Position numbers and translations under genes: made by a program | From: a virus | Length of the DNA stretch: 33,965 nucleotides | Strand: one strand, 5' to 3' | Virus record (IMG/VR): IMGVR_UViG_3300009108_000383 | Coordinates: 1-33,965 of that record | In this document: positions 4,754-33,965 of the stretch, in pieces | How positions within the stretch are numbered: position 1 is the stretch's first letter | How the letters are laid out: each line of letters opens with the position of its first letter | The notes under the pieces: model-generated | The model's input: only the letters and a program-made list of their open reading frames with translations | Told to the model about the DNA's origin: nothing | The model's database searches: none

Positions 4754-5602
4754 TTGACGGATTTATTTTATCCTGATTACATACAACATCAGAACTTAGT
4801 TAAAGAACACGGAGATTTGGGAAAAATCTATTCTCAACCGATGGCTATTTGGTTGGGTAGAGATAGATACCATAAATTAAAACGTGTGCCTTCACGAGTT
4901 CATCGGTTGTTAAAGAGAGCAAAAAATAAAACAGTTGTATTTGTAATCTATTCTATTCCGAATAGAGATATTAGTGGAAGACATTCTATGGGTGGAGAAA
5001 AAGATGAAGAGTCTTATTTAAAATTTATAAATGAGGTTATTGAAGGAATTGGAAATCATTCACCAATAATAATATACGAACCAGATGCATTGTGTGATGG
5101 TGTTAAACTAACTAAGAAAAAATCACAACAACGAATAAAGTTGATGCAAACTTCACTTAAATTATTAAGTAAAACAAATGCTAAAACTTATATAGATAGT
5201 GGGCATCCAAACTGGTTGAAAGTAAGTGAAGTATGTTCGTTACTAAAAAGGTTTAAAAAAATACCATATGAAGGATTTACATTGAATTGTTGTAACTTTG
5301 TAGATACAGATTCGTGTGTAGAATATGGTTCAGAGATAAGTAATTACATTGGTAAGAATTTTGTTATAGATACTTCAAGAAATGGGCTAGGATATACAGG
5401 AAATATATACAATCCTACAAATATAGCAATAGGAGAGTATCCTACATTGAATACAGAGATTAAAAATTGTGATGGTTTCTTATGGTTGAAACCATTAGGA
5501 GAGTCGGATGCAAAGGTTGATGGTACGCCGAAGGCAGGCCGATTCAATTTAGAGTATGCCTTAAAAATTATCGAAAATAGTAAAAAAATAAATGTATTTT
5601 AA
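4754..5602 (+). CDS. Glycoside hydrolase family 6 (cellulase-type) enzyme
   Basis: This 282-residue protein reads across its whole length as the GH6 barrel, the family of inverting endo- and exo-beta-1,4-glucanases. Landmarks appear in order: YSIPNRDISG with Asp72 (the position of the Cel6A Asp in the YDLPDRD loop), IYEPDAL with Asp111 (the proton-donor position of EPDSL), YIDSGHPNWL (146-155), GFTLNCCNF (174-182), FVIDTSRNG (203-211) and FLWLKPLGESD (242-252). It has no signal peptide, no linker and no carbohydrate-binding module, so it is either cytoplasmic until lysis or carried by the virion. The start is TTG at 4754 behind ATAGGA; no upstream in-frame ATG serves better. It closes the first operon, and promoter-like sequence follows. 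Likely substrates are bacterial cellulose or another beta-glucan. The family call is strong; the biological role is unknown. Confidence 0.88.
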   Translation: MTDLFYPDYIQHQNLVKEHGDLGKIYSQPMAIWLGRDRYHKLKRVPSRVHRLLKRAKNKTVVFVIYSIPNRDISGRHSMGGEKDEESYLKFINEVIEGIGNHSPIIIYEPDALCDGVKLTKKKSQQRIKLMQTSLKLLSKTNAKTYIDSGHPNWLKVSEVCSLLKRFKKIPYEGFTLNCCNFVDTDSCVEYGSEISNYIGKNFVIDTSRNGLGYTGNIYNPTNIAIGEYPTLNTEIKNCDGFLWLKPLGESDAKVDGTPKAGRFNLEYALKIIENSKKINVF

Positions 5603-8814: not shown

Positions 8815-9885
8815 ATGGGTGTAGATTATAATGTATTAGAAAAGTTTGTGGATATAGATGATTTAGAATTAAATTACCATAGAGTTACACACAATATAAA
8901 TTCTATTGATATTGAAGACGGTATTAAATGGATTTTTAAATACTATAGAGAAAAGGGATTTCCACATTATATAGTACGAGAAGAAGAAAAGAACTCTCAT
9001 ATAAACTCATTAAGAAAATTTGATACGGATAGTATTTTCATAGATAATCAGATTCAACAAACAATGCATGGATTAAGATTGGCATGGAACTATTTTCCTC
9101 ATTGGGTAGATGTTAAATGTGGTAATTCTAAAATGCCACCCATTGGATATTTTAATGATGATGAGTTATTAAAGATTATAATTAAAAAAACTTGGAAGTA
9201 TGAAGAAAAACATGGTAATAATAAATTTACAGAAAACCGTTTTAGACAATCATTAAAATTATATCAAGGTTCTCAGGCAGTAAGTAACTTCAGACCAAGT
9301 GCAGCAAAAGTTATCTATGAGAAGTTTGGTGGAGATGGAGTGATACGAGATATGAGTTGTGGTTGGGGTGGAAGATTGATTGGGTTTTTAGCATCAAAAA
9401 ATACCAAACATTACATTGGTACAGAACCTTCAACTAAAACATATGAAGGTTTGTTAAAAATGAAAAAAGATTTTTCATATTTGGGAAAACAAATAGATAT
9501 ATATAAACAAGGAAGTGAAGATTTTATTCCAGAAAAAGAATCAATCGATTTATGTTTTACTTCACCACCTTATTTCGATACCGAAAAATATTCGAATGAA
9601 TCAACACAAAGTTTTAAAAAGTTTCCTACTCAAGATGAATGGGTTAATGGGTTTTTAAGAAAGACGATAGAACATTGTTATTATGGATTGAAAGAGAATG
9701 GTTATATGTTAATTAACATTGCAAATACACCAAAATATAAATTCATAGAGAAAGAAACCGTAAATATATCAAGTGAGATTGGGTTTATAAAAGAACCTAC
9801 TGTAGATTTGATATTATCAAGTGTGGCTGGTAAAGGAATAAAGACCGAACCAGTATTTGTTTTTAGAAAGGGAAATAGTGGATAG
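8815..9885 (+). CDS. SPPY-type DNA amino-methyltransferase
   Basis: This 356-residue protein has a Rossmann methyltransferase half in the C-terminal 200 residues: DMSCGWGGR at 179-187 (SAM-binding motif I position), YIGTEPS (motif II, with the Glu for the SAM ribose) and FTSPPYFDTEKY with the catalytic SPPY at 250-253. SPPY is typical of N4-cytosine and N6-adenine methyltransferases, with motif I before motif IV. The first 150 residues are unassigned and could recognise DNA. A paralogue with the same order (DFSMGWGDR, TSPPYF) is encoded at 20367. The gene ends with GGATAG, inside which the next methylase starts (GTG 9878). DNA is the likely substrate; the base and site are unknown. Confidence 0.8.
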   Translation: MGVDYNVLEKFVDIDDLELNYHRVTHNINSIDIEDGIKWIFKYYREKGFPHYIVREEEKNSHINSLRKFDTDSIFIDNQIQQTMHGLRLAWNYFPHWVDVKCGNSKMPPIGYFNDDELLKIIIKKTWKYEEKHGNNKFTENRFRQSLKLYQGSQAVSNFRPSAAKVIYEKFGGDGVIRDMSCGWGGRLIGFLASKNTKHYIGTEPSTKTYEGLLKMKKDFSYLGKQIDIYKQGSEDFIPEKESIDLCFTSPPYFDTEKYSNESTQSFKKFPTQDEWVNGFLRKTIEHCYYGLKENGYMLINIANTPKYKFIEKETVNISSEIGFIKEPTVDLILSSVAGKGIKTEPVFVFRKGNSG

Positions 9886-10807: not shown

Positions 10808-12209
10808 ATATAAGGACTATTTTACACATCTATTAAGGGAAGCCTCTTTATCAGGATCGTCTCGTTCAGCTGGAATTCCAAATTGGGATTTATATATTGT
10901 AAATGATTTCGATAAAAAAAGAAAATATAATATCGAAAAAGATGGAAAGTTATATGATAAAAAATTCCAAGAAATTGGTGTTGTCAAAAAAGGTAATGTG
11001 ATTCAGATATTATCATCAAAATTAACTAAACATAAAGTAAGTAAATTTGCAAATATATCCATAGGTGGAAAAAAAGGGTTTGTAAGTATTTCTATGATTC
11101 AAAAACCAAAGCAAACCAAAGAGGGTGATATATTTGGTAGTAATTCTAAAGAGTTTACACCTGATAAATTAAAACTTCAAGGTATAAAATATTCCACTTC
11201 TTCCGCCATGATTTCGAAAATTAAATCTGGTTTGAATTCACAATATTCTGATTCTAAATATAATGAGGTAAAAAAGTATCTATCTGAATGTTTAAGTAAA
11301 GCATCTGGCACCAATATTTCACTTTATGAAAGTTTTGCAAAATCTTATTCTCTTAGTGGTAAGTATAATCTGAGTAACTCTGATATATCAACTCTAAGTA
11401 AAAACTTTGGTGAGGTACTGGCCGCATTATACATTCTCGTGACTAATAAAAAAGCACAATCGGTTGAATTTCCAAATATATCAGAAACACTTTATGATTT
11501 CACTATGACTAATGATAAAGGAATCAAACATTTTTATAGTGTTAAATCTATGGGTGGTAGTTCTACTGCACTTGGAAACATTAATTATGTTTTAGATAAG
11601 TTTTCTAAAGATAATAAAATGTTCTCGGACAGTAAAAAAGAAATAGAAGTAATACGAGGTTTGATAAATGATAAACAAAGTGGACGAACCACTATTATTA
11701 ATATTACAGATTTTTATAATAAAACTTTATCAACTAAAAATAAACAGATATTAAATTTGATAAAAAAAATATCAAAATATAAACCAAAAGATTTATCACA
11801 AACAGAACTTAGTAAGTGGTTTCCGAGTATGGTTGCAACTGCTAAAATAAATGATTTTATCAACACTATGAATGATATTTATATCAGAATACTTGATAAA
11901 TCTAAGGTTAGTGAGAAAAAACTAAGACAGATGTACAATGGAAAAAGTATTCCAAATGGAAATGGTTATCTTCTCTACCCAATGGGTTCGTATATTGTAA
12001 AATATCTGAATAGTGATAAAAAATATCTTGATTTACTAAATACCATTCTAAACTATGGTTCTTATGTTCACCAATTTACAGTAAATCTTTCTAAAAATAA
12101 CTTTCAGGTTAAGATATCACCTTTTAAAACAAGTAAATTTAGATATACTTACAACGCGGGTGGTGGGTATCCTGGTAATCGACCAATAGGGTTTAAGAAG
12201 GTTTCATAA
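10794..12209 (+). CDS. Putative PD-(D/E)XK nuclease-like protein, possible restriction partner
   Basis: This 471-residue protein is of uncertain family. Residues 60-105 look like an SH3-type barrel (IGVVKKGNVIQIL, then ISIGGKKGFVSISMI). Centrally, KNFGEVLAALYIL (Glu207), LYDF (Asp235) and HFYSVKSMGGSS (Lys251) fit the spacing of a PD-(D/E)XK core: Glu in a helix, Asp at the end of a strand, then x-V-K on the next strand. Similar FGE...D...SVK patterns occur in unnamed phage proteins. The C-terminus has MYNGKSIPNGNGYLLYP. An intact DPPY methyltransferase starts 20 bases downstream, the order of a type II restriction-modification pair. ATG 10794 is preferred over TTG 10782. It overlaps the end of the HNH-like frame. 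The nuclease assignment is inferred from pattern only. Confidence 0.6.
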   Translation: MIFIKYKDYFTHLLREASLSGSSRSAGIPNWDLYIVNDFDKKRKYNIEKDGKLYDKKFQEIGVVKKGNVIQILSSKLTKHKVSKFANISIGGKKGFVSISMIQKPKQTKEGDIFGSNSKEFTPDKLKLQGIKYSTSSAMISKIKSGLNSQYSDSKYNEVKKYLSECLSKASGTNISLYESFAKSYSLSGKYNLSNSDISTLSKNFGEVLAALYILVTNKKAQSVEFPNISETLYDFTMTNDKGIKHFYSVKSMGGSSTALGNINYVLDKFSKDNKMFSDSKKEIEVIRGLINDKQSGRTTIINITDFYNKTLSTKNKQILNLIKKISKYKPKDLSQTELSKWFPSMVATAKINDFINTMNDIYIRILDKSKVSEKKLRQMYNGKSIPNGNGYLLYPMGSYIVKYLNSDKKYLDLLNTILNYGSYVHQFTVNLSKNNFQVKISPFKTSKFRYTYNAGGGYPGNRPIGFKKVS

Positions 12210-12228: not shown

Positions 12229-13059
12229 GTGAGTTTAATATTAGGAAACTCTCTTGACAAAATTAAAGACAAAATAGAAAATAAATCAATAGATTTAATT
12301 CTTACAGATCCACCATATATTATTTCGAGAGATAGTGGGATGGATCAATTTCACAAGTTTGTGCAGAATAAAGAAGAGTTTGTGAAAACTGAAAAAGATT
12401 GGTTAGAATATAAATTAAAAAATCCATTAAATTATTCAGAGTTACAAGAAGATAATTTTTTAAGATATGGAACAATCTATGGTGATAAGTATGCAATTAA
12501 AACAAAGTTTGGTTCTTGGGATAATGAATTTACTTTAGATGTTTTAGATCAGTATATTAAACTGTTTTATGAAAAATTGGTAGATGGTGGAACTTGTATT
12601 ATATTTTTCGATATATGGAAATTATCTTATTTGAAAGAGATAATGGAAAAGTATAAATTTAAACAGATAAGATTTTTAGAATGGATAAAAACGAATCCAC
12701 AACCACGAAATAGTAAAATAAATTATCTTACTAATTGTAGAGAAATAGCTTTATTGGGTATAAAGAAATCTAATCCAACATTTAATAGTCAGTATGATAA
12801 TGCTATATATAAATATCCTTTTCCAGGTGGTAAGGATAGAATTCATCCAACACAAAAGAGTTTACCATTATTTATAGATTTGGTAAAAAAACATTCAAAT
12901 GAAAATGATGTAGTATTAGATCCATTTGCAGGAAGTGGAACAACTTGTGTGGCAGCCAAAGAAACAAATCGTCAGTATATTGGTATTGAAAGAGATGAAA
13001 AATATTATAAGTTGGCTAAGAAAAGAATAGAGAGGTTACATGAAAACACGCTCAGCTAA
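12229..13059 (+). CDS. DPPY DNA methyltransferase, intact
   Basis: The 276 residues start at GTG 12229 behind AAGAGG. LTDPPY at 25-30 is the catalytic motif IV, placed near the N-terminus. LDPFAGSGTTCVAAKETNRQ (motif I, 230-249) and YIGIERDEKYY (motif II) come at the C-terminus, giving the beta-class order of N6-adenine or N4-cytosine methyltransferases. The 200 residues between, including HPTQK (206-210) just before motif X, would hold the target-recognition region. It follows a putative PD-(D/E)XK protein by 20 bases, so the pair may be a restriction-modification unit. Alternatively it is a stand-alone protective methylase. Its end overlaps the chimeric ORF at 13040. Confidence 0.88.
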   Translation: MSLILGNSLDKIKDKIENKSIDLILTDPPYIISRDSGMDQFHKFVQNKEEFVKTEKDWLEYKLKNPLNYSELQEDNFLRYGTIYGDKYAIKTKFGSWDNEFTLDVLDQYIKLFYEKLVDGGTCIIFFDIWKLSYLKEIMEKYKFKQIRFLEWIKTNPQPRNSKINYLTNCREIALLGIKKSNPTFNSQYDNAIYKYPFPGGKDRIHPTQKSLPLFIDLVKKHSNENDVVLDPFAGSGTTCVAAKETNRQYIGIERDEKYYKLAKKRIERLHENTLS

Positions 13060-20366: not shown

Positions 20367-21575
20367 ATGTATTTAGATTACTTTGATAAGTTTAAAAATA
20401 TGGAGCCTTACCTTAAAATAGATAAAAAGGAATGGGCGTACATAAAAGAAACTTTTGATAGACCAGATATTCAGGAAACTCTCGTAGAGATTTTGAAAGA
20501 ATATGAATTACCTACTCAAGAGTTGACCATAAAAGATGCATATAAAGATTTTATGAAGTTAAAAGGTATTCAATGGCCCGATTATTTAAAAGAATCTAAA
20601 TGGTATGCAAGGTCAGAGTATAAATGGCCGTTAACTAAGAAAATTATACGAAGGATAAATAGAGGAAATGACGCTAGTAATTATTTCCAACAGTATAATA
20701 GGTGGTCAGTAGATGGAACTATTTCTCCAGGTCCAGTTAGGACTTGGGGAAATCCAAAGTTTATGTATACTTTGTTAGGTTCATTATTCACACTTGAGGT
20801 TGAGAAGGTAGATAGGGGAACATTAAGGTCTTGTATTGGACTTCGTAAGTATATATGTTCTCAATTCAAACCAAATGTAGCAAAATCAATTTATGATATG
20901 TTTAAGGCAGAGAATATACTTGATTTTTCTATGGGTTGGGGTGATAGATTGGCAGGATTTTACGCGAGTGATTATGGGAAACATTATGTGGGAATAGACC
21001 CAAGAAAAGAAAATCATCCTATTTACAACGAACAATCAGAGTTTTATGAGAAACACTTGGGATTTTTCGAACACGAGAGGAAATCAGAATTTCATTGTTC
21101 ACCAGCAGAGGAGTTTGATTTTTCTCAATATGATGATTATTTTGATTTAGTATTTACTTCACCACCATATTTTAATGTGGAGAGATACAGTTATGATGAT
21201 ACACAAAGTTGGGTTAGATATAAGTCTATTGAAGATTGGAATACAGATTTCTTACAGAAGACATTGAAAAATTTATGGAGTAGTATTAAAACTGGTGGAT
21301 ATTTATTAGTGAATATAAGTGATGTAAATGCATCGAGTAAAGGTAAGAAAACAAAGGGATGGTTATCTATTTGTGATCCTATGAACGACTTTTTAGATAC
21401 ATTTAAAGATAGTGAATATAAAGGTTGTATTGGTTATGAGATGGCAAAAAGACCTAATTCAATAGGAGCTGGAACTGCTAAAGTAACAGAAGAAACTAAT
21501 AGAAAACCAGAATATATCTTACCAGTAAAAGAAGGATTATTTGCTGAACCAATTTGGATTTGGAAAAAAATATGA
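20367..21575 (+). CDS. SPPY-type DNA amino-methyltransferase, second copy
   Basis: In this 402-residue protein the C-terminal half holds DFSMGWGDR (186-194, SAM-binding motif I), YVGIDPRKEN (motif II) and LVFTSPPYFNVERYSYDDTQ with the catalytic SPPY at 265-268, then GGYLLVNISD. The order and wording parallel the protein encoded at 8815, so the two are paralogues, but the first 160 residues differ and may set different targets. ATG 20367 has no clear ribosome site; ATG 20400 is an alternative start. It interrupts the usual clamp to clamp-loader order and ends in an ATGA overlap with the loader gene, so the two are probably translated together. Confidence 0.8.
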   Translation: MYLDYFDKFKNMEPYLKIDKKEWAYIKETFDRPDIQETLVEILKEYELPTQELTIKDAYKDFMKLKGIQWPDYLKESKWYARSEYKWPLTKKIIRRINRGNDASNYFQQYNRWSVDGTISPGPVRTWGNPKFMYTLLGSLFTLEVEKVDRGTLRSCIGLRKYICSQFKPNVAKSIYDMFKAENILDFSMGWGDRLAGFYASDYGKHYVGIDPRKENHPIYNEQSEFYEKHLGFFEHERKSEFHCSPAEEFDFSQYDDYFDLVFTSPPYFNVERYSYDDTQSWVRYKSIEDWNTDFLQKTLKNLWSSIKTGGYLLVNISDVNASSKGKKTKGWLSICDPMNDFLDTFKDSEYKGCIGYEMAKRPNSIGAGTAKVTEETNRKPEYILPVKEGLFAEPIWIWKKI

Positions 21576-22504
21576 TTATAAAAGAAGATCACGGGTTATG
21601 GGTAGAAAGATACCGACCTTCAACAATGGAAACTTACATTGGGAACGAACATCTAAAAAGTAAGGTATCCATTTACTTGGAGAGTGGAGATTTACCACAT
21701 CTATTATTATATGGAAGAGCTGGTACAGGTAAGACCACATTAGCCAAATTACTTGTGAAGAATATAGATTGTGATTATCTGTATATCAATGCATCAGACG
21801 AGAATAATGTAGATACCGTTAGAACTAAAGTGAAGACCTTTGCATCCACTATGGGATTTAAGGATATGAAAGTGATTATTTTGGACGAGTGTGATTACAT
21901 TACACCTAATGCGCAGGCAGCTCTTCGTAACTTAATGGAAACATTCTCAAAACATTGTAGGTTTATTCTAACTTGTAATTATGTTGAGAGAATAATAGAC
22001 CCAATACAATCACGGTGCCAATCATTTCAGATTATACCACCATCAAAGAAAGAAGTAGCGGTACATTTATCAAATATATTAAAGAATGAGAATGTAACTT
22101 TTAAGGTAGATGATATAGCAACTATTATTAATGGTGGATATCCTGATATACGAAAAGTTATAAATACCTCACAAAGACAAGTTGTAAAAGGAGAACTTAA
22201 ATTAGATGCTCAAGAAATTATATTGAGTGATTATAAATTAAAGTTATTAAAAGTATTACAAACTAAAAGTAAAACAAGAAAGGAAATATTTACAGAAATA
22301 AGACAAATACTGGCAGATGCAAAGGTTACAGACTTTGCAGATTTTTTCAGATTATTATATGATGAAGTAGATACGTATGGGAAGGGTCATATAGCAGAAT
22401 GTATTTTGATTATTGCTAGATATGAATCATCTGATACCCATGTAGTAGATAAAGAAATAAACGCAATGGCAATGTTAATAGAATTATTAGGAGTAATTAC
22501 ATAA
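21572..22504 (+). CDS. Clamp-loader large subunit, T4 gp44-like AAA+ ATPase
   Basis: This protein has 310 residues (T4 gp44 has 319). LWVERYRPSTMETYIGNEHL is the RFC-type opening. GRAGTGKT (48-55) is Walker A, IILDECDYITPNAQAALRNL is Walker B plus the DEAD-box-like acid and helix, and PIQSRCQSF carries the SRC arginine finger. It loads the clamp with the small subunit encoded at 23750. ATG 21572 overlaps the upstream stop as ATGA, which decides it over TTG 21554. It ends in a TAATG overlap with the protease gene. Confidence 0.93.
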   Translation: MIIKEDHGLWVERYRPSTMETYIGNEHLKSKVSIYLESGDLPHLLLYGRAGTGKTTLAKLLVKNIDCDYLYINASDENNVDTVRTKVKTFASTMGFKDMKVIILDECDYITPNAQAALRNLMETFSKHCRFILTCNYVERIIDPIQSRCQSFQIIPPSKKEVAVHLSNILKNENVTFKVDDIATIINGGYPDIRKVINTSQRQVVKGELKLDAQEIILSDYKLKLLKVLQTKSKTRKEIFTEIRQILADAKVTDFADFFRLLYDEVDTYGKGHIAECILIIARYESSDTHVVDKEINAMAMLIELLGVIT

Positions 22505-23106
22505 TGGAAGAAAAGTATTGGGGAGAGAAAAAACCTCCTGTGAAGAAAGCAATAAATAAAGAAACTACAGAAAAACATATAGGAGTACATGAAAATAAGA
22601 TTTATTATTATTCTGGAGTACATAGAGATGGTGCTGTAGAATTAAATAAGAAGATAGGTGAATTACAAGTAAGAAGTTTTACAATGGCAAATAATTTAGA
22701 TGTAGAACCTTACCCAATTCATTTATATATAAATTCAGGTGGTGGCTCAATCACTTCAGGTATTTCATCAATGGATACAATATTGAGATGTAAAGTTCCA
22801 GTTTATACTTATGTTGATGGTTTTGCTGCAAGTGCAGCAACATTCCTTTCAGTAGTGGGTAGTAAAAGATACATTTCAAGAAATTCATATATGTTAATAC
22901 ACCAATTATCTTCAAACTTTTGGGGAAAATATTCAGAGTTTCAAGATGAAAAACAAAATTTAGATTTGATGATGGATACAATTGTAAATGTATATAAGGA
23001 ATATACAAAAGTTCCAGTCAGAAAATTAAACGAAATATTAAAACACGATTTGATGTGGGATGCTAAAACGTGTTTGAAATACGGATTAGTGGACGAAATC
23101 ATTTAA
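22504..23106 (+). CDS. ClpP-like serine protease
   Basis: This protein has 200 residues, about the length of bacterial ClpP. It has YPIHLYINSGGGSITSG (70-86, the oxyanion-side Gly-rich strand), GFAASAATF with catalytic Ser110 (GQAASMGAF in E. coli), MLIHQLSS with His133, and a likely Asp182 in ILKHDLMWDAKTCLKYGLVDE. ClpP tetradecamers degrade proteins fed by an AAA+ unfoldase. None is encoded in the window, so it may borrow a host ClpX/ClpA, act alone, or process a phage protein. The N-terminal 25 residues are charged and replace the normal N-terminal loop. It is coupled to the clamp-loader gene. Confidence 0.9.
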   Translation: MEEKYWGEKKPPVKKAINKETTEKHIGVHENKIYYYSGVHRDGAVELNKKIGELQVRSFTMANNLDVEPYPIHLYINSGGGSITSGISSMDTILRCKVPVYTYVDGFAASAATFLSVVGSKRYISRNSYMLIHQLSSNFWGKYSEFQDEKQNLDLMMDTIVNVYKEYTKVPVRKLNEILKHDLMWDAKTCLKYGLVDEII

Positions 23107-24176: not shown

Positions 24177-24584
24177 ATGAAAAAAGCAAAAGTTATAAGA
24201 GAATCTAGCACAAAAAAAGAAATAAATTCGTATTTAACAGGCGATGGTGGTGATGTTGTAGCATTGATGGAAGAAGAATGGCCTGAAATGACCAATGAGT
24301 TTAAGAAGATCCAAAGAGAACAATACGAATTGTTCTTACACAAACAGCATGATTACGGGCCTGGTAATATAAGTGTTGGAACACAATTACAAACACCCGA
24401 AGAAGTCAAACTATCACTTACAGGACTTTGGTTCAGGATTAATGACAAATGCCAGAGATTAAAAACCTTATTGATGGGTGATAAACAATCAGCCGTAGAT
24501 GAACCTTTAGAAGATGCATATTTAGACATTTCTAATTATGGAATTATGGCAACTATTGTTAAGAATGGTAAATGGGGAAAATAG
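24177..24584 (+). CDS. Nmad1-type nucleotide-modification-associated protein
   Basis: In this 135-residue protein the core YELFLHKQHDYGPGNIS (50-66) and LSLTGLWFRINDKCQRLKTL (79-98), ending SNYGIMATIVKNGKWGK, match the Nmad1 (DUF1599) family found in phages and linked by gene neighbourhood to DNA base modification. The biochemical activity of the family is not established as far as I know. The first 40 residues are a loosely conserved extension. It lies one base after gp62, in the same window as several DNA methyltransferases and glycosyltransferases. Confidence 0.78.
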   Translation: MKKAKVIRESSTKKEINSYLTGDGGDVVALMEEEWPEMTNEFKKIQREQYELFLHKQHDYGPGNISVGTQLQTPEEVKLSLTGLWFRINDKCQRLKTLLMGDKQSAVDEPLEDAYLDISNYGIMATIVKNGKWGK

Positions 24585-26325: not shown

Positions 26326-26520
26326 ATGGATAAGTTACACTTAACATCGGTAAAGATATTAAAAAGTATCCATTTAAAATTTAAACGTAAATGTTTAGAA
26401 GATGAATTTACATTACAAAAATTTGTAAATAGGGCACTTGATATATATAACACCGATGAAGAATTTAAAGAAAAAATAAAAAACTATAAGGATTTAGAAA
26501 AATCAGGTAGTATGATATGA
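26326..26520 (+). CDS. Small ribbon-helix-helix-like protein
   Basis: The 64 residues comprise LHLTSVKILKSIHLKFKRKC as strand and first helix, FTLQKFVNRALDIYN as second helix, then a charged tail. This matches the Arc/MetJ-type ribbon-helix-helix spacing seen in small phage repressors. It is the first gene after a promoter-like spacer and could regulate the glycosyltransferase block, though that is inference. Its stop overlaps the next ATG (ATGA). Confidence 0.6.
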   Translation: MDKLHLTSVKILKSIHLKFKRKCLEDEFTLQKFVNRALDIYNTDEEFKEKIKNYKDLEKSGSMI

Positions 26521-27899
26521 AGAAAAAGAAAATATTATTGCTCTCAGATGATTTAAGAATGTCATCTGGAGTAGGAACGGTTTCAAAAGAATTTGTTTTA
26601 GGAACTATAAATCATTATGATTGGGCCCAAATTGGAGGGGCTATAAAGCATCCGGATGAAGGTAAAGTGATAGATATGAATGATGCTTTAAAAGAAGATT
26701 ATGGAGTAGAAGAGGGATATTTAAAAATATATCCTTCAAGTGGTTATGGTAATCCAGATATGTTAAGATCAGTTTTAAGGTTGGAAAAACCAGATGCGAT
26801 AATGATTTATACAGACCCGCGGTTTTGGTTGTGGTTATATCAGATGGAAAGAGAGATTAGGTCACAAATACCTATTTTCTATTACAACATTTGGGATGAT
26901 TTACCATATCCAATGTGGAATCAGCCATTTTATGAGAGTTGTGATTTACTTATGAACATTTCTAAACAGACGGTTAATATTGTAAAAAATGTAAGACAAA
27001 ATAAACCAGTAGAAGATTGGCAATGTACATATGTTCCACACGGAATTAATTCTGAAGATTTTAAACCAGTAGATGAAACAGATGCTAAGTTCGTACAGTT
27101 TAAAGATGAGTTATATCAAGGTAATGAATATTCTTTTATTGTTTATTTTAATAATAGAAATATTAGACGGAAAAATCCTGGTGATGTTTTATTGGCATTT
27201 AAAACTTTTACAGATAAATTATCTGAAGAAGAAAGAAAAGAATGTGCATTGGTAATGCATACACACCCAGTAGATAATAATGGAACGGATTTACCAGCAG
27301 TAGCAGATGCCTTGATGCCAGATTTAAATGTAATATTTTCTGGAGCAAAATTGGATACCGACCAGATGAATTTTTTATATAATATAGCAGATATTACTGT
27401 TAATATAGCATCGAATGAAGGATTTGGATTAGGAACTGCAGAATCTGTTATGGCAGGAACTCCGATAGTTGTAAATGTTACAGGTGGGATGCAAGACCAA
27501 TGTGGATTTAGATACAAGGGTAAGTTATTAACAGCTAAAGATTATGAATGGGTACATTCTTTACATAATAGAAAAGAATGGAAAGATAATGATGATTTGA
27601 CTTGGGGTGAATGGGTAAAACCTGTTTGGCCAGCATGTCGTTCATTACAGGGTTCAGTACCCACACCATATATCTTTGACGATAGAAGTGATTATGAAGA
27701 AGTAGCAGACCAAATACATGAGTGGTATAAAGTACCAAAAGAAGAACGAGATGAAAGAGCCTTAAAGGGCAGAGAATATATGATGAGAGATGATACATAT
27801 CTTTCAGCTAAAGGAATGTGTGATAGATTTATAGAAGATATGGATACCGCATTTGAGAAATGGACACCAAGAAATAATTTTGATTTAGTAGAGGCGTAA
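26517..27899 (+). CDS. GT4-type glycosyltransferase (GT-B fold)
   Basis: In this 460-residue protein the C-terminal half has the GT4 donor-site signature NIASNEGFGLGTAESVMAGT, the E-x7-E region that grips the nucleotide sugar, followed by PIVVNVTGGMQDQ. The N-terminal half opens KKKILLLSDDLRMSSGVGTV, a Gly-rich acceptor loop. An insertion with many Trp (about 345-385: EWVHSL, WKDNDDLTWGEWVKPVW) is unusual. It has no signal peptide or membrane anchor. It starts the glycosyltransferase run and abuts a second GT4 gene. Donor and acceptor cannot be read from sequence. Confidence 0.85.
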   Translation: MKKKKILLLSDDLRMSSGVGTVSKEFVLGTINHYDWAQIGGAIKHPDEGKVIDMNDALKEDYGVEEGYLKIYPSSGYGNPDMLRSVLRLEKPDAIMIYTDPRFWLWLYQMEREIRSQIPIFYYNIWDDLPYPMWNQPFYESCDLLMNISKQTVNIVKNVRQNKPVEDWQCTYVPHGINSEDFKPVDETDAKFVQFKDELYQGNEYSFIVYFNNRNIRRKNPGDVLLAFKTFTDKLSEEERKECALVMHTHPVDNNGTDLPAVADALMPDLNVIFSGAKLDTDQMNFLYNIADITVNIASNEGFGLGTAESVMAGTPIVVNVTGGMQDQCGFRYKGKLLTAKDYEWVHSLHNRKEWKDNDDLTWGEWVKPVWPACRSLQGSVPTPYIFDDRSDYEEVADQIHEWYKVPKEERDERALKGREYMMRDDTYLSAKGMCDRFIEDMDTAFEKWTPRNNFDLVEA

Positions 27900-29222
27900 A
27901 TGAGTAATAAACCAAGGATGCTAGTTACAGCACCAGTTACAACAAGAAGTGGTTATGGGGCACATGCAAGAGATATAGTTTTATCATTGTTAGATTTAGA
28001 CAAATATGATGTTTCAGTTTTTCCAGTTAGGTGGGGAAATACAGCAATGGATTATTTAGATGAAAATGATAAACAACATAAACGAATTTTGGATGTATTG
28101 ATTTATGAATTGACTGAAAAGACTTATCCACAACCTGATTATCATGTTCATATAGTAATTCCAAATGAATTTCAACAATGGGGAAAAACGTATAATATAG
28201 GAATTACTGCTGGTACAGAATTTACTGCTATTCCAGGAGAATGGATTGAAGGATTGAATAAAATGGATATGAATATTGTTCCTTCACATTTTACAAAAAA
28301 TGTATGCTTAAATACAAAATTTGATAAATTAAATGAGCAAACAAATGAAAAAATTGGTGAGGCAATGGTTGAAAAACCAATGGAAGTTTTGTTTGAAGGT
28401 TATGATGATAAGTTATATTCTCCAAGTAAAGTAGTAAAAAGTGATTTAACCACAGAATTGAATACAATTAAAGAAGATTTTTGTTTTTTAGTATGTGGTC
28501 ATTGGTTACAAGGTGAATTTGGTCATGATAGAAAAGATATTTCAAGTACTGTTAAGTTATTCTTTGATACATTTAAAAATGTTCTTAAAAAACCAGCACT
28601 GATTTTAAAAACAAGTGGGGCAACCACCGCGGTAGTGGATAGATATGATATTTTAAAGAAGATACATCATATTAAAAAATCGTGTGGTGGTGATATTCAG
28701 AAATTACCTCCAGTTTATCTTTTACACGGAGATTTAGACGATGCCCAAATGAATGAATTGTATAATCATAATAAAATAAAAGCAATGGTAAGTTTAACTC
28801 ACGGAGAAGGTTTTGGAAGACCTTTATTGGAATTCGCCACAACAGGAAAACCAATTATGGCATCTGATTGGAGTGGACAAGTAGATTTTTTAAATAAAGG
28901 ATATACTACATTATTACCAGGAGATTTAAAAAATGTACCAAAGGATTCTTTTCCAAAAAATATTTGGGTTAAAGAATCTAAATGGTTTGTAGTTAATTAC
29001 GGTGTTGTAAGAAGTATGTTAAAAAATATAACAAAAAATTATAAAAAGTTTAAGAAGAAGGCACTTAAACAACAAATATACGCTAAGAAATTTACACGAG
29101 ATAAGATGACAGAAAAGTTGGGAGAAATATTAGATACATATTTGCCCAAACCAGTAGAGAATGTAGATTTAAAATTACCAAAGTTAAAAAAAGTTAAACT
29201 ACCTAAATTGAAGAAGTTATAA
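27900..29222 (+). CDS. GT4-type glycosyltransferase with a Lys-Leu-Pro C-terminal repeat
   Basis: In this 440-residue protein, LVTAPVTTRSGYGAHARDI is the N-terminal acceptor loop, GTEFTAIPGEWIEGLN and MNIVPSHFTKNV lie mid-protein, and SLTHGEGFGRPLLEFATTGK is the C-terminal donor motif. The last 20 residues hold two copies of KLPKLKK (LKLPKLKK, VKLPKLKK), a cationic tail that may bind membrane, nucleic acid or another protein. It starts directly after the TAA of the previous gene and ends in a TAATG overlap. It probably acts in sequence with its neighbours on one glycan. Confidence 0.85.
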   Translation: MSNKPRMLVTAPVTTRSGYGAHARDIVLSLLDLDKYDVSVFPVRWGNTAMDYLDENDKQHKRILDVLIYELTEKTYPQPDYHVHIVIPNEFQQWGKTYNIGITAGTEFTAIPGEWIEGLNKMDMNIVPSHFTKNVCLNTKFDKLNEQTNEKIGEAMVEKPMEVLFEGYDDKLYSPSKVVKSDLTTELNTIKEDFCFLVCGHWLQGEFGHDRKDISSTVKLFFDTFKNVLKKPALILKTSGATTAVVDRYDILKKIHHIKKSCGGDIQKLPPVYLLHGDLDDAQMNELYNHNKIKAMVSLTHGEGFGRPLLEFATTGKPIMASDWSGQVDFLNKGYTTLLPGDLKNVPKDSFPKNIWVKESKWFVVNYGVVRSMLKNITKNYKKFKKKALKQQIYAKKFTRDKMTEKLGEILDTYLPKPVENVDLKLPKLKKVKLPKLKKL

Positions 29223-29650
29223 TGGAAAGGAATATAAAATGTCCACATTGTTATTCTAAAAAAATGTGTTTTGAAACTGAAGTGGAAGACTATTCGAGTT
29301 TTCTATGTTTCAGATGTGGGTTTATGAGTGATACTCGATTAATCCCAGAATCAGAATTTTTAGAAAAACATTTAGAAAATACTCCGTACTTGGTTGAATC
29401 TTTATCTCACTATGATATTAATAGAAAAATATATTGGTATCCTTCGGTAATGAATATGGGCCCAAGAGGAGTAGTGTTTCCTATAAGACATAAAAAAACA
29501 TATAAATGGAAAGCTTGTAAGTATATTGAGACCGATAAAGATAATTATAATAAAGAGTTAGATGTAGAGAATGGTGTGGAAGTTGATAAATTTGATTTTC
29601 TTAAAACATTAGACTTTTTGGAGATAATAATTAATAAAAACTTTAGTTGA
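29222..29650 (+). CDS. Zinc-ribbon protein of unknown function
   Basis: This 142-residue protein has C7-x2-C10 (CPHC) and C29-x2-C32 (CFRC), which make an N-terminal zinc ribbon. A charged helix and a segment YWYPSVMNMGPRGVVFPIRH follow, which reads like a beta-rich binding surface. The fold of the rest is unknown. It is coupled to the GT4 gene by TAATG. Confidence 0.72.
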   Translation: MERNIKCPHCYSKKMCFETEVEDYSSFLCFRCGFMSDTRLIPESEFLEKHLENTPYLVESLSHYDINRKIYWYPSVMNMGPRGVVFPIRHKKTYKWKACKYIETDKDNYNKELDVENGVEVDKFDFLKTLDFLEIIINKNFS

Positions 29651-29655
29651 GTTAA

Positions 29656-30123
29656 ATGGCAAAAATATTAACAAGATGGAATCAAGTACGAGCTGGAGAT
29701 ATAGTATCTTTCAGATATCTTTCAGGAACTACTAATAAGACTTTAACACATACTTTGTTGGTATTGGCTAAACCAGGTCGGAAATCAGTAGGTAAAAGTG
29801 GAAAAAAGTATGTTGTTGGTTTAAAATTAGAAGAATCAAATAGACCAACAGTTGTAAATACTAAAATGATAACTGATGTACTTTTGAAATATGGTGAAGT
29901 TGTAGTGTTTGATGCTAAAAAGAAAATATTTAAATTAGATTTTCACAAAAAGGCAAATAGAAGAAACTTGGAAGCCGTATACAGTAAATTAAAAAATAAA
30001 ATAAAATCTCTAAACATATATAGAACTTATGATTTTGAAAAGGCACGGAAAAGCCAAGTATTTTTAGAATCGGTTAAGATAGATAGAGAATTAAGTAAAA
30101 TGTTATTGGAACAATATGAATGA
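29656..30123 (+). CDS. Protein of unknown function
   Basis: This 155-residue basic protein begins ILTRWNQVRAGDIVSFRYLS, a beta-barrel-like opening with a Gly-Asp turn. A strand-rich middle (VVGLKLEESNRPTVVNTKM) and a helical C-terminus (YSKLKNKIKSLNIYRTYDFE) follow. No catalytic motif is visible. It overlaps the next gene by 4 bases (ATGA). Confidence 0.7.
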   Translation: MAKILTRWNQVRAGDIVSFRYLSGTTNKTLTHTLLVLAKPGRKSVGKSGKKYVVGLKLEESNRPTVVNTKMITDVLLKYGEVVVFDAKKKIFKLDFHKKANRRNLEAVYSKLKNKIKSLNIYRTYDFEKARKSQVFLESVKIDRELSKMLLEQYE

Positions 30124-30749
30124 AAATTAGTTATGCAATAACTGTTTGTAATGAAGAAGTAGAGTTACAAAAATTAGTTACATTTTTATTAAAACATAAA
30201 GAGTTACAAGACGAAATAGTAATCACTTACGATTCTAAAAATGGTTCTAAAGGTGTTGAAGATTATCTAAGAACACATTCAGTAAATGGAGAATTTAGTT
30301 GGCATCCATTTGAGTTTGAGGGTAATTTTTCAGATTTAAAAAATTATACAAAGTCAATGTGTAGTGGTGATTACATATTTCACTTAGATGCCGATGAAAT
30401 TCCACATGAAGTATTGATGGAACAAATACATACTATATTGGAAATGAACGAGGTTGATTTGATATGGATCCCGAGAGTAAATACAGTAGAGGGATTAACT
30501 CAAGAACATATTCAAAAGTGGGGATGGAAAGTTGCAGAAAAGGGTTGGGTAAATTATCCTGATTATCAGGCAAGAGTATTTAGAAATAGTGAAGATATTA
30601 AGTGGACTAAAAAAGTACATGAACATATTACTGGACATACCACACAAGCACATCTACCACCACACGAAGAATTGTCATTATATCATCCAAAGACTATAAA
30701 AAAACAGGAAAAACAAAATGAGTTATACGAAAAAATCCAAAGAGCGTAA
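30120..30749 (+). CDS. GT2-type glycosyltransferase (GT-A fold)
   Basis: The 209 residues have KISYAITVCNEEVELQKLV as the GT2 opening, DEIVITYDSKNGS as the nucleotide-binding strand, and YIFHLDADEIPHE with the metal-binding Asp-x-Asp. KWTKKVHEHITGH follows as an acceptor-side segment with the likely base. The C-terminus is short. Translation of the next gene starts inside its last 32 bases. Confidence 0.86.
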   Translation: MKISYAITVCNEEVELQKLVTFLLKHKELQDEIVITYDSKNGSKGVEDYLRTHSVNGEFSWHPFEFEGNFSDLKNYTKSMCSGDYIFHLDADEIPHEVLMEQIHTILEMNEVDLIWIPRVNTVEGLTQEHIQKWGWKVAEKGWVNYPDYQARVFRNSEDIKWTKKVHEHITGHTTQAHLPPHEELSLYHPKTIKKQEKQNELYEKIQRA

Positions 30750-31143
30750 ATTTTTACCAACTTTAGGTGAATTAATAGATAGACTTAGTATTCATCAGTT
30801 AAAGGAAGTGTTTATACCAGAGAATAAGAAAAATTATGCTGAAGAAATGAAGGATATTGTTCATGATATAGATTTAATTTTAAAAGAAAAAGATGTTAAT
30901 TTAGACGGAGATATTATCAGAGCAATAATTGTTCTATCTCAAATGAATGCACATATTTGGTATAATGAATCACAAGTTCGTAAAGGTGAAAAAGGTTCAG
31001 ATAATCTTATGTTAACACATGGACTGAATGGTATAAGAAATACTGCTATTAATAAGATTATGGAAGTAGTTGGTGGAAGAAAAGATTATAAGATAGATTG
31101 TATTGCATCTGATTTTAAGGATTGGGAAGTTAGTTGGCAATGA
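30718..31143 (+). CDS. Helical protein associated with the glycosyltransferase run
   Basis: In this 141-residue protein, LPTLGELIDRLSIHQLKEVF leads a mainly helical sequence ending CIASDFKDWEVSWQ. The LGELIDRLSI-x-x-LK pattern recalls small proteins encoded beside glycosyltransferases, but I cannot name the family with certainty. It overlaps genes on both sides, so it is likely made in step with the enzymes. Confidence 0.68.
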   Translation: MSYTKKSKERKFLPTLGELIDRLSIHQLKEVFIPENKKNYAEEMKDIVHDIDLILKEKDVNLDGDIIRAIIVLSQMNAHIWYNESQVRKGEKGSDNLMLTHGLNGIRNTAINKIMEVVGGRKDYKIDCIASDFKDWEVSWQ

Positions 31144-31913
31144 GTAAAAATGTAGTTTTTATTCCCAATATAGATTTGGGAGATGGTAGAAATAAATCAT
31201 ATAGTTATTCAATTAATAGTTGGAAACATTTCTGTGATAAGTATGATTGTGAATTAGTTGTATGGGAAGATTTATTATTGCCTGTAGAACAAATGAAGAT
31301 AACTTGGCAACGATATTATATGTTTGATATTTTAGAGGCAAATAATATTGATTACGACCAAATATTGATAGTTGATGCAGATACAATAGTTCATCCTGAT
31401 TGTCCTAATTTCTTTACAGAGACAAATGGTAAGTATAGTGCAGTTAGAAATAATGGAAGTTTTGAGTGGGTTAGAAGGTCAATGGATGGATTTTCTAAAT
31501 TGTTATTTCCAGGAGATATTACTTTTAATGTGTGGGATTATATAAATTGTGGATTTCAGATTGTTAATAAAAATCATAAAGAATTTTTTGAATATGTGAG
31601 AAATTATTATTTAGATAATCAACAACCTGTACAAAATGCTATAGCACACGTTAGGGCAGGTACAGACCAAACAATAATTAATTTTTTATTACGATTACAA
31701 AATATAGAAATAAATTATTTACCAATTTGTTATAATTTACAAGACTTACATTCTAAACAATTATTATTTTTACATCCTAAAATGTGGTTTAAAGATGAAT
31801 TAATATTTAAAAATTGTGGTTATGTATTTCATTTTAATGCAATTCCCCCCAATGAAATGAATAGGGATGCCAATTATTGGATAAAGAGAGCCTATGAGGA
31901 GTTTTATAAATGA
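31140..31913 (+). CDS. Glycosyltransferase-like protein (GT-A fold, GT8-like)
   Basis: This protein has 257 residues from ATG 31140 (ATGA overlap; TTG 31134 is less likely). KITWQRYYMFDILE and YDQILIVDADTIVHPDCPNF hold the Asp-x-Asp of GT-A enzymes. YINCGFQIVNKNHKEFF matches the 'N-x-G' segment of glycogenin/GT8-type proteins, and VRAGTDQTIINFLL is the D-Q motif that follows it. It probably adds a sugar to a glycan or protein. Confidence 0.82.
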   Translation: MSKNVVFIPNIDLGDGRNKSYSYSINSWKHFCDKYDCELVVWEDLLLPVEQMKITWQRYYMFDILEANNIDYDQILIVDADTIVHPDCPNFFTETNGKYSAVRNNGSFEWVRRSMDGFSKLLFPGDITFNVWDYINCGFQIVNKNHKEFFEYVRNYYLDNQQPVQNAIAHVRAGTDQTIINFLLRLQNIEINYLPICYNLQDLHSKQLLFLHPKMWFKDELIFKNCGYVFHFNAIPPNEMNRDANYWIKRAYEEFYK

Positions 31914-32824
31914 AAGCAGTATTCTTTTCAGAATCCCAAGTTACTGGTCATCCACCAAGAACTTTTGAGAATGCTCGTACAGAATATGCGTGGATGATGG
32001 CGTTAGAAGCACCACATTATAATATAAACAATATACCAACGGAACATTTTGATTTAGGTATAGTGATTATACCTAAAAATAATCCTCAAATAGATTTAGA
32101 TAAATATAGAAAAGTTTGTGATAAAGTAGCGGTAATGCAAGAAGGCCCACATTGGTACTTTCAAGATTATGATATAGAAAAACAATTTTATTATTATAAT
32201 ACATTGATGGATGCAGATTGGGTGTATTGTCATAATGAAAGTGATGTAAATTATTATTTGGGTTTAGGTTGTAAAGATGTAAGGGTGATGCGGAGTCTTA
32301 TGATACCAGAAGGATTAGTACCAAGAAATGAATGGGGTGATGCCACAATGATAGGTGGCAATTTTGTTTCTTGGTATGGTGGATTTGATTCTTATATAGT
32401 GGCGAGAGAAATTGGTGATCCAATAAGTGCACCTTCAATGGGTAGAAAACAAGAACAAGAAGATGCAATAGAAGATATAAATTATTTACCATATATGAGT
32501 TGGAGAGAATGGATAAATTGTTTATCTCAATTTAATATAGGAATTCATTTAATGAGAACACACGCAGCAGGAACATTCGCTCTCAACTGCAGTTTTCACG
32601 GAATACCTTGTATTGGGTATAGGGGATTAGACACACAAGAGATATGTCATCCATTAACTTCAGTAGAGGTTGGTGATTTAGAAACAGCTAAAGAAATGGC
32701 ATTAAAGTTAAAGACTGATGATGAATTTTATAAATCATGTAGTGAGACTTCATTAGAAATGTTTGAGAAGTTTTACACAGAAAGGGCTTGGAAAGAAAAT
32801 TGGAATACTCAATGGATAAAATAA
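31910..32824 (+). CDS. Glycosyltransferase-like protein (GT-B fold)
   Basis: In this 304-residue protein, KAVFFSESQVTGHPPRTFEN opens the N-terminal domain and YCHNESDVNYYLGLGCKDV ends it. The C-terminal domain has LSQFNIGIHLMRTHAAGTFA, SFHGIPCIGYRGLD and HPLTSVEVGDLETAKEMALK, the layout of a GT-B donor domain, although the usual E-x7-E is not evident. It may be a divergent transferase or an inactive partner. It overlaps its neighbours by 4 and 13 bases. Confidence 0.72.
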   Translation: MKAVFFSESQVTGHPPRTFENARTEYAWMMALEAPHYNINNIPTEHFDLGIVIIPKNNPQIDLDKYRKVCDKVAVMQEGPHWYFQDYDIEKQFYYYNTLMDADWVYCHNESDVNYYLGLGCKDVRVMRSLMIPEGLVPRNEWGDATMIGGNFVSWYGGFDSYIVAREIGDPISAPSMGRKQEQEDAIEDINYLPYMSWREWINCLSQFNIGIHLMRTHAAGTFALNCSFHGIPCIGYRGLDTQEICHPLTSVEVGDLETAKEMALKLKTDDEFYKSCSETSLEMFEKFYTERAWKENWNTQWIK

Positions 32825-33965
32825 TAAGTTTTATACAACCGAGTAGAAGCAATCTAAAATATCTAAAGTGGTCTTACAATAGTATCCGTAAGAACTTAGG
32901 ATACAGACACGAGATTTGTTGGGCAGATGATTTCTCTGATGACGGAACATGGGAATGGATGAAAGAGATTGCCGACAAGGATAAGAATGTAAAGATACAT
33001 AGAAACGAAGGGCCTGAAAGATTAGGTCATACAATTTTATATGATACATTAGTGGATATGGCAACAAATGATATAGTGATGATTTTTCACGCTGATATGT
33101 ATGCTTGTCCAAAGATGGATGAAGAAGTCTTAAAACATTTAGAAAGAGGAAAGGTAGTAAGTGCTACAAGAATAGAACCACCACTACATCCTGACGGGCC
33201 CGAAAAGATATTACAAGATTTTGGTATAGAACCTGAAGAATTTGATGAATTAGGACTTATGAAGTTTTTAGAAGAGAAAACTCCTTGGACAAATATTATT
33301 AAACAAGAAGTGAAAGAAACTACTGAAGGTATATTTGCACCTTGGGCAATATACAAAGAAGATTTTCAATCTATTGGTGGACACGACCCATTATACGCCC
33401 CACAATCAAAAGAAGATTCAGATATATTCAATCGGTTTGTATTGAATGGATATGAATTAATACAAACTTGGCAAGGATTTGTATATCATATGACATCCAG
33501 AGGTTCGAGATTTAAAGATGGGGCAATGAGAAATCCTGCGGGACAAGTGTTTATGAAAGGTAGAGAGAGTAGTGAGTGGTTGAAGCAAAACCTTCGTAGC
33601 ACCCGTAATTTCATCCGTAAATGGGGACATATGGTACGACATGATGAATTGATGTATCCTATCATTCCACCCAAATATGATGTAGGATTTGTGGTTCATA
33701 ATTGTAATACTGAAATGTTAAGAGAATTAGAGCCGTGGTGTAGTGATATTTATGGAGATTGGGTAGGACATAAAGGATTAGGTGCCAATGATTATATTAA
33801 GAAAGAACAACCAGACACACAATTTGATTTGAGTAAAAAGATTCATTCACAACATACAGAACCTAAAAATGATGTGGTGGTTGAATTTGACTGTAACCTT
33901 TTAACACCACAGAATTTTCAGATATTAGTGAACTTATCAGATATACTTAAAGATTCAGGTGAAGT
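32812..33965 (+). CDS. GT2-type glycosyltransferase with a second C-terminal domain (partial at window end)
   Basis: ATG 32812 opens a frame that runs off the window after 384 residues. MDKIISFIQPSRSNLKYLKW and HEICWADDFSDDGTWEWM are the GT2 opening and nucleotide-binding DDxSxDxT pattern. ATNDIVMIFHADMYACP holds the His-Ala-Asp at the metal site. GGHDPLYAPQSKEDSDIFNR is the acceptor-side loop with the ED motif. A further domain starts near residue 285 (MYPIIPPKYDVGFVVHNCNT) and includes VVVEFDCNLLTPQNFQIL; it is unidentified. It is the last gene visible and continues the same operon. Confidence 0.85.
   Translation, partial: MDKIISFIQPSRSNLKYLKWSYNSIRKNLGYRHEICWADDFSDDGTWEWMKEIADKDKNVKIHRNEGPERLGHTILYDTLVDMATNDIVMIFHADMYACPKMDEEVLKHLERGKVVSATRIEPPLHPDGPEKILQDFGIEPEEFDELGLMKFLEEKTPWTNIIKQEVKETTEGIFAPWAIYKEDFQSIGGHDPLYAPQSKEDSDIFNRFVLNGYELIQTWQGFVYHMTSRGSRFKDGAMRNPAGQVFMKGRESSEWLKQNLRSTRNFIRKWGHMVRHDELMYPIIPPKYDVGFVVHNCNTEMLRELEPWCSDIYGDWVGHKGLGANDYIKKEQPDTQFDLSKKIHSQHTEPKNDVVVEFDCNLLTPQNFQILVNLSDILKDSGE

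Follow-up and report, generated by a model that had tools for sequence, protein, structure and literature searches.

The window analysed here is the whole of IMGVR_UViG_3300009108_000383, a linear virus fragment of 33,965 bases from an uncultured marine phage. It ends in a run of glycosyltransferase (GT) genes, and this run is the constant left part, with a short version of the variable slot, of a phage glycan-assembly island. Ten genes, designated A to J and all on the plus strand, fill the stretch from position 26,326 to the end of the record with intergenic gaps of −32 to +5 bases, which agrees with the tight coupling claimed in an earlier note made from the sequence alone (the original prediction). 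Six of the genes encode GTs and span 26,517–33,963; B and C are of the GT4 type, F and J of the GT2 type, H is GT8-like and I is a GT-B enzyme by structural model. The six coupled GTs of the original prediction were confirmed, with uneven support, as B, F and J pass the Pfam cut-offs and C is recovered through phrog_2170. The division into three GT-B enzymes (B, C and I) and three GT-A enzymes (F, H and J) was likewise borne out, for H through its relatives and for I through its model. The possibility that the GT genes are chance open reading frames (ORFs) was rejected. The earlier view of the region was right about the run of GTs, but could not see that the run is a short variant of a variable island.

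Searches of IMG/VR returned 79 distinct loci for I and 11 for B. The island is bordered on the left by A-B-C-D-(E)-F and on the right by I and J, and the slot lies between F and I. Seventeen uncultured loci reached at least 4.4 kb upstream of F (same-contig repeats removed, near-duplicates kept, three cultured phages left out); A, B, C and D lay in that flank in every case, and E in 12. Fifty contigs were chosen, mostly by length, from those behind 89 loci (L003 to L091); F was found in 49 of them (G040 lacks it), with stop codons in the reading of two copies (G036 and G051). In all 49 contigs with both genes, F lay 5′ of I and shared its strand, although 49 overstates the number of independent phages because near-duplicates are included (e.g. 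G012/G027, G021/G031 and G042/G044). The gap between F and I in these contigs ranged from 1169 to 33,128 bp (median 10,338 bp); that of the window is at the short end, with 1160 bp holding G and H only. The longest slot, with 34 genes called in 33,128 bp, belongs to G016 (L113, L114 and L055). A second variable stretch separates I from J, whose starts were 811–8443 bp apart in 71 loci and less than 1100 bp apart in 30 of them.

Most of the constant core could be assigned to GT families. B (26,517–27,899), a GT4-type GT-B enzyme, matched Glycos_transf_1 (PF00534) above the cut-off (E 4.6e-9) and the phage GT family phrog_2170 (E 2.1e-18), and its best solved relative was B736L of chlorovirus NY-2A (3oy2, E 2e-16). 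Relatives of B occur in nine phage records in all, including Immutovirus (vB_FspM_immuto), Mel-JY01 and RM378, which are phages of Flavobacterium, Microcystis and Rhodothermus, respectively. C (27,900–29,222) is a second GT4-type GT-B enzyme and a distant paralogue of B; it matched phrog_2170 (E 1.1e-13) and, below the cut-off, PF00534 (E 1.7e-5), and its best solved relative was also B736L (3oy2, E 2.6e-4). The profiles of B and C aligned with an hhalign probability of 98.2, and the profile alignment of C with RM378 gp14 had a probability of 92.6. F (30,120–30,749), the GT2-type GT-A enzyme that forms the left bookend of the slot, matched Glycos_transf_2 (PF00535) above the cut-off (E 1.4e-6), and its DxDE motif was invariant in all 23 aligned rows.

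The remaining core genes encode small proteins. The leader gene A (26,326–26,520) encodes 64 amino acids and is 45% identical in Immutovirus; a ribbon-helix-helix fold had been proposed for it, which was confirmed by no library, as A had no family match above the cut-off in Pfam, PHROGs or NCBIfam. D (29,222–29,650) was present in all 17 loci, and the zinc ribbon predicted for it appeared in sub-threshold matches of its N-terminus only. E (29,656–30,123) is present in most but not all loci and is basic, as predicted, with a net charge of +19 by a simple count of lysine and arginine minus aspartate and glutamate; it had no family above the cut-off in the same three libraries.

The slot of the window contains G and H. 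H (31,140–31,913) belongs to the commonest slot family, a single-linkage cluster of 68 relatives found in 40 of 49 slots. H itself had no family match above the cut-off, and searches of solved structures at E 1 and of phage records at E 0.01 gave no match either; it is classed as a GT8-like GT-A enzyme through its relatives, as 9 of the 40 members of its alignment matched Glyco_transf_8 (PF01501) at E 0.01 or better (best 1.3e-8). G (30,718–31,143) occurred in 23 of 80 loci. The helical protein predicted here came out as all-helical in a model, but with low confidence (predicted local distance difference test score, pLDDT, of 56). G had no match above the cut-off in Pfam, PHROGs or NCBIfam and no relative at E 0.01 in phage records, and its three matches to solved structures were at chance level (E 0.8 to 1). 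Its conservation is unusual: identity to aligned relatives was 82–98% in nine of ten and 69% in one, compared with 57–77% for I in eight related loci. Four-fold sites differed between G of the window and eight divergent copies by 27–54%, and by 19% from the near relative L008; the corresponding values for I and J were 38–59%. Recent transfer and strong constraint could each account for the conservation of G.

On the right of the slot, I (31,910–32,824) had no sequence family match above the cut-off. Its AlphaFold model (pLDDT 92.6) best matched the fold of BshA (6d9t; Z 22.6 over 286 residues, 3.0 Å); the search named many GT-B enzymes of unlike function and thus gives the fold and no substrate. 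J (32,812–33,963), a GT2-type GT-A enzyme cut by the record end, matched PF00535 above the cut-off (E 4.3e-14).

The slots as a whole carry sugar-nucleotide, tailoring and GT genes. The 49 slots (580 kb) yielded 687 plus-strand proteins, 8 minus-strand ORFs and a coding density of 0.98, values that lean one-stranded because the gene caller took the longest ORF with a 60-amino-acid floor and favoured the plus strand. The proteins formed 199 single-linkage clusters (97 singletons), in which each family name rests on one representative; the family scan covered 150 of the 199 representatives (637 of the 687 proteins) and matched 103 families, of which 25 are considered here. In the stretch from F to J of 80 loci (634 proteins; some contigs counted twice through same-contig pairs such as L003/L016, L009/L015 and L006/L045), epimerases formed a cluster represented in 49 loci and DegT aminotransferases one represented in 23, each named from a single representative. 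Single slot representatives matched UDP-sugar dehydrogenase, SIS isomerase, PIG-L deacetylase, WbqC, sulfotransferase, GT29 sialyltransferase, DAHP-synthase-like, NeuB, asparagine-synthase-like and TOD1 families. The 25 families considered also include methyltransferases, hexapeptide transferases, radical SAM and cytidylyltransferase-like families. Of the 50 contigs, 10 contained NeuB-family matches, two of which were weak at 26 bits and are probably DAHP-synthase-like. A slot was defined in nine of these contigs, and each of their 12 matches fell within it. A cluster represented by a CMP-sugar synthetase (PF02348, E 4e-15) had 21 members, spread over 16 of the 49 contigs. By their family matches, the islands taken together hold at least two gene kinds used for nonulosonic-acid sugars.

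The GT29 sialyltransferase-family gene lies at positions 2523–3296 of L035, in a phage contig (PF00777, E 2.5e-17); this family is known mainly from eukaryotes. A protein of about 338 amino acids (cluster 3) recurred in 30 of 49 slots, and its representative (L051, 8318–9331) had no Pfam match at E 0.001.

Predicted membrane helices were rare in the island. Simple hydropathy predicted none in the ten proteins A to J; among the 687 slot proteins, 15 had at least one helix, two had two and none had three or more, while the same script found six in the O-antigen polymerase (WbbH) and nine in the flippase (RfbX) of E. coli K-12. A canonical Wzx/Wzy O-antigen or capsule locus was rejected on this count.

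The original prediction of stepwise multi-sugar glycan assembly is well supported, and the check it proposed, extension beyond position 33,965 in search of sugar-nucleotide genes, was positive in two near relatives. L003 (3300007513_001480), with an identical B (100%), stops at the same point in J as the window, whereas L015 and L045 (B 96–97% and 92% identical) run on past J. In L045, J is followed in order by an unassigned protein, a TOD1-type GT, an NAD epimerase (E 7.3e-46), a DegT aminotransferase (E 1.6e-64), a GDP-mannose 4,6-dehydratase (E 5.1e-116), more unassigned proteins and a CMP-sugar synthetase (E 1.1e-23), as assigned by a Pfam scan. The ORFs of L015 after J, compared by eye, were colinear with those of L045, with near-identical starts to the end of the available stretch. 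The more distant L027 had different genes after J, with one epimerase-like ORF only (by eye).

We give an even chance to the reading that the soluble enzymes of the island act in the cytoplasm to make a glycan particular to each lineage, which would most likely be carried by a virion protein. In this mechanism, B and C, perhaps with F, would begin the chain on a constant acceptor encoded by the phage; enzymes from the slot would then make and add the sugars particular to a lineage, such as amino-deoxy and nonulosonic-acid-like sugars, as well as methyl, acetyl or sulfate groups; and the chain would be extended or capped by I and J. Assembly in the cytoplasm is suggested because the enzymes look soluble, and the carrier would most likely be a capsid, decoration or tail protein, giving the phages exchangeable, serotype-like coats. 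The broader proposal, namely, that these are T4-superfamily phages with an exchangeable O-antigen-like island, which make their own activated sugars, including the nonulosonic-acid type, assemble them with soluble enzymes on a constant virion acceptor and change coat serotype by slot swapping, seems possible at somewhat less than even chance. The target had been left open among virion protein, DNA and envelope. A virion protein is now favoured, short of proof, by the lack of polytopic slot proteins, the absence of the thymidylate synthase/hydroxymethylase family from two of three complete relatives and the occurrence of the core in phages of very different hosts. The envelopes of Flavobacterium, Microcystis and Rhodothermus are unlike each other, so relatives of B and C in phages of all three would fit a phage-encoded acceptor better than a host one.

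Several observations weigh against a virion carrier. No structural gene was found beside the locus, and replication genes adjoin it upstream. Lipid A-core and other lipid carriers, at the inner face of the host membrane, would likewise be within reach of soluble GTs. The hydropathy script is not fully sensitive, as it missed a small recurring slot protein (cluster 21) that we take to be of the two-helix DUF2061 type. B is only remotely similar to B736L and has ordinary GT4 enzymes among its matches, and the F-like gene of RM378 is not adjacent to B.

Remodelling of host lipopolysaccharide (LPS) or another surface glycan during infection, by which superinfection would be blocked or a receptor changed, is a distinctly less probable explanation. 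The GT-rich islands of pelagimyophages have been read in this way, as agents of O-chain modification, and GT8, to which the common slot enzymes are similar, is there described as acting mainly in LPS synthesis (PMC7029224). The content of the slots also resembles that of bacterial O-antigen loci. However, a flippase- or polymerase-like protein with three or more helices was found in none of the 49 slots by a script that was positive on its controls, and this argues against an envelope polymer of the Wzx/Wzy type. The presence of the B–C core in phages whose hosts have very different envelopes points the same way, and in a lytic infection the chains would need to be exported before lysis.

Glycosylation of hypermodified bases in phage DNA, as in T4, is unlikely. 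The replication genes next to the locus, the DUF1599 gene at 24,177 and the three N4/N6 methyltransferase-like genes of the window would suit this explanation, and Immutovirus, the best-matching cultured relative, has a gene of the thymidylate synthase/hydroxymethylase family. T4 alpha-glucosyltransferase was among the fold matches of I (E 5.1e-7), as one of many GT-B enzymes. Viral GTs are also said, in work by Pyle from 2024, to put varied glycans on DNA. Nevertheless, the thymidylate synthase/hydroxymethylase family was absent from the complete genomes of RM378 and Mel-JY01 and present in 4 of 39 records, many of which are fragments; TET/JBP (PF12851) was found in none of 43 records, in a search made without a positive control; and the methyltransferases of the window are of the N4/N6 type and not C5. 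We know of no DNA glycosylation as complex as sulfation, NeuB-type synthesis and a slot of up to 34 genes would imply. A free or lipid-linked glycan, or glycosylation of a non-virion phage protein such as a decoy or secreted product, is the least probable, as the missing acceptor and the unexplained constant or recurring proteins D and G leave room for it, but export machinery was not seen in the slots and positive evidence is nil.

Several known systems share features with the island. Bacterial O-antigen and capsule loci likewise have constant ends around highly variable sugar and GT genes, but their polytopic Wzx/Wzy-like proteins have no counterpart in the slots. Mycobacteriophage systems have few GTs and are not known to have a sugar-nucleotide island, which sets them apart from the island described here. 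They share the phage setting, and their glycans are carried by virion proteins, namely, capsid and tail tube subunits (Freeman 2023, via PMC12619734). Chloroviruses differ in being algal viruses and in having an established acceptor, which is inferred here. Their glycosylation genes are not known to be gathered in one island. The chlorovirus capsid protein is glycosylated in the cytoplasm by the GTs of the virus itself; chloroviruses encode a GDP-mannose dehydratase and make GDP-fucose, and PBCV-1 also GDP-rhamnose, with their own enzymes (PMC7019647). B736L, the best solved relative of B, binds GDP-mannose best and may transfer D-rhamnose (PMC4691112). Viral GTs without a membrane anchor and a GDP-mannose dehydratase, the latter in the near relative L045, are thus common to both systems, and we regard the likeness as a parallel of a possible mechanism rather than as membership.

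The closest published island is the hypervariable host-recognition cluster of pelagimyophages and cyanomyophages, which lies between VrlC and gp14 with tail fibres (PMC7029224). Both are large, non-syntenic, GT-rich islands with deoxy-sugar genes in phages of the T4 superfamily (for the window, probably so by kinship), and GT8 is the most represented family in the published cluster. That cluster is in the structural region with tail fibres, whereas the island of the window is framed by its own constant GTs and follows replication genes. The Pelagibacter phage HTVC008M was in the searched phage collection but was returned by none of the searches with B, C or I, and the lineage of the window therefore differs from that of pelagimyophages. 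Three cultured phages, already annotated gene by gene, carry parts of the island. In Immutovirus these are relatives of A, B, C, D, F, I (23%) and J, interspersed with aminotransferases, an epimerase and a methyltransferase; in Mel-JY01 they are B (as two ORFs), C and F; and in RM378 they are B, an F-like gene and C, the last recognised by profile. Searches on the immuto name and on RM378 with glycosyltransferase found no paper on the GT loci of these three phages, and the name immuto was not present in the available part of a paper on Baltic Flavobacterium phages (PMC7077304). In the literature on phage virion glycosylation, nonulosonic acid, DNA glycosylation and marine phage GT islands, a scope outside which most subscription journals fell, no paper on such a layout in such a lineage was found, and parallels only were found in PMC12619734, PMC7029224, PMC12906663, PMC13216743, PMC7019647 and PMC4691112. 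GT islands of T4-like phages are already published; the lineage, layout and scale described here look new because of the other borders, the flanking replication genes and a lineage different from that of the pelagimyophage island.

Upstream of the GT block, the window carries a T4-superfamily-like set of genes encoding a single-strand binding protein, UvsX, an exonuclease, a DnaB-like helicase and ribonucleotide reductase, as well as a DNA polymerase (phrog_262), clamp loader subunits, a ClpP-like protease and an exonuclease. The relative of this polymerase in Mel-JY01 is annotated as PolB. All three complete relatives have the Gp23-type major capsid family, as do 2 of 36 larger fragments; the phage of the window would belong to the T4 superfamily by kinship, as the window ends short of the structural genes. 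Positions 12,001–33,965 had no near DNA relative among 50,697 phage records. A scan of a genome collection gave ten loci, all in metagenome bins with mixed bacterial and archaeal labels (three of ten flavobacterial), and hence no reliable host.

Other features of the window were also noted, the genes among them all on the plus strand. A glycoside hydrolase family 6 (cellulase-type) gene (4754–5602; PF01341, E 4.6e-37) lies within the replication region and has relatives in only 3 of the 50,697 phage records. The three N4/N6 DNA methyltransferase-like genes are located at 8815–9885, 12,229–13,059 and 20,367–21,575, two of them with a partial domain match. The ClpP-like protease gene (22,504–23,106), amid the replication genes, matches head-maturation protease families (phrog_94, E 2.1e-37). 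The DUF1599 gene (24,177–24,584; 'nucleotide modification associated domain 1', E 2.8e-8) has relatives 5′ of the core in many related loci and in Mel-JY01. Promoter-like sites were fewer than in shuffled sequence (50 versus a mean of 59.1) and terminator-like sites slightly more numerous (5 versus a mean of 2.8). The word TATAAAT occurred 50 times against 34.4 expected, a count attained in 1 of 100 shuffles.

The slots are a source of soluble GTs and sugar-nucleotide enzymes. Should the glycan prove to cover the virus particle, the phages concerned would exchange their surface sugars by cassette in the manner of bacteria, with a bearing on adsorption, particle stability and neutralisation at sea. 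The roles of the many 'auxiliary' sugar genes in marine phages could then be tested directly, because core-bearing relatives (Immutovirus, Mel-JY01 and RM378) are in culture.

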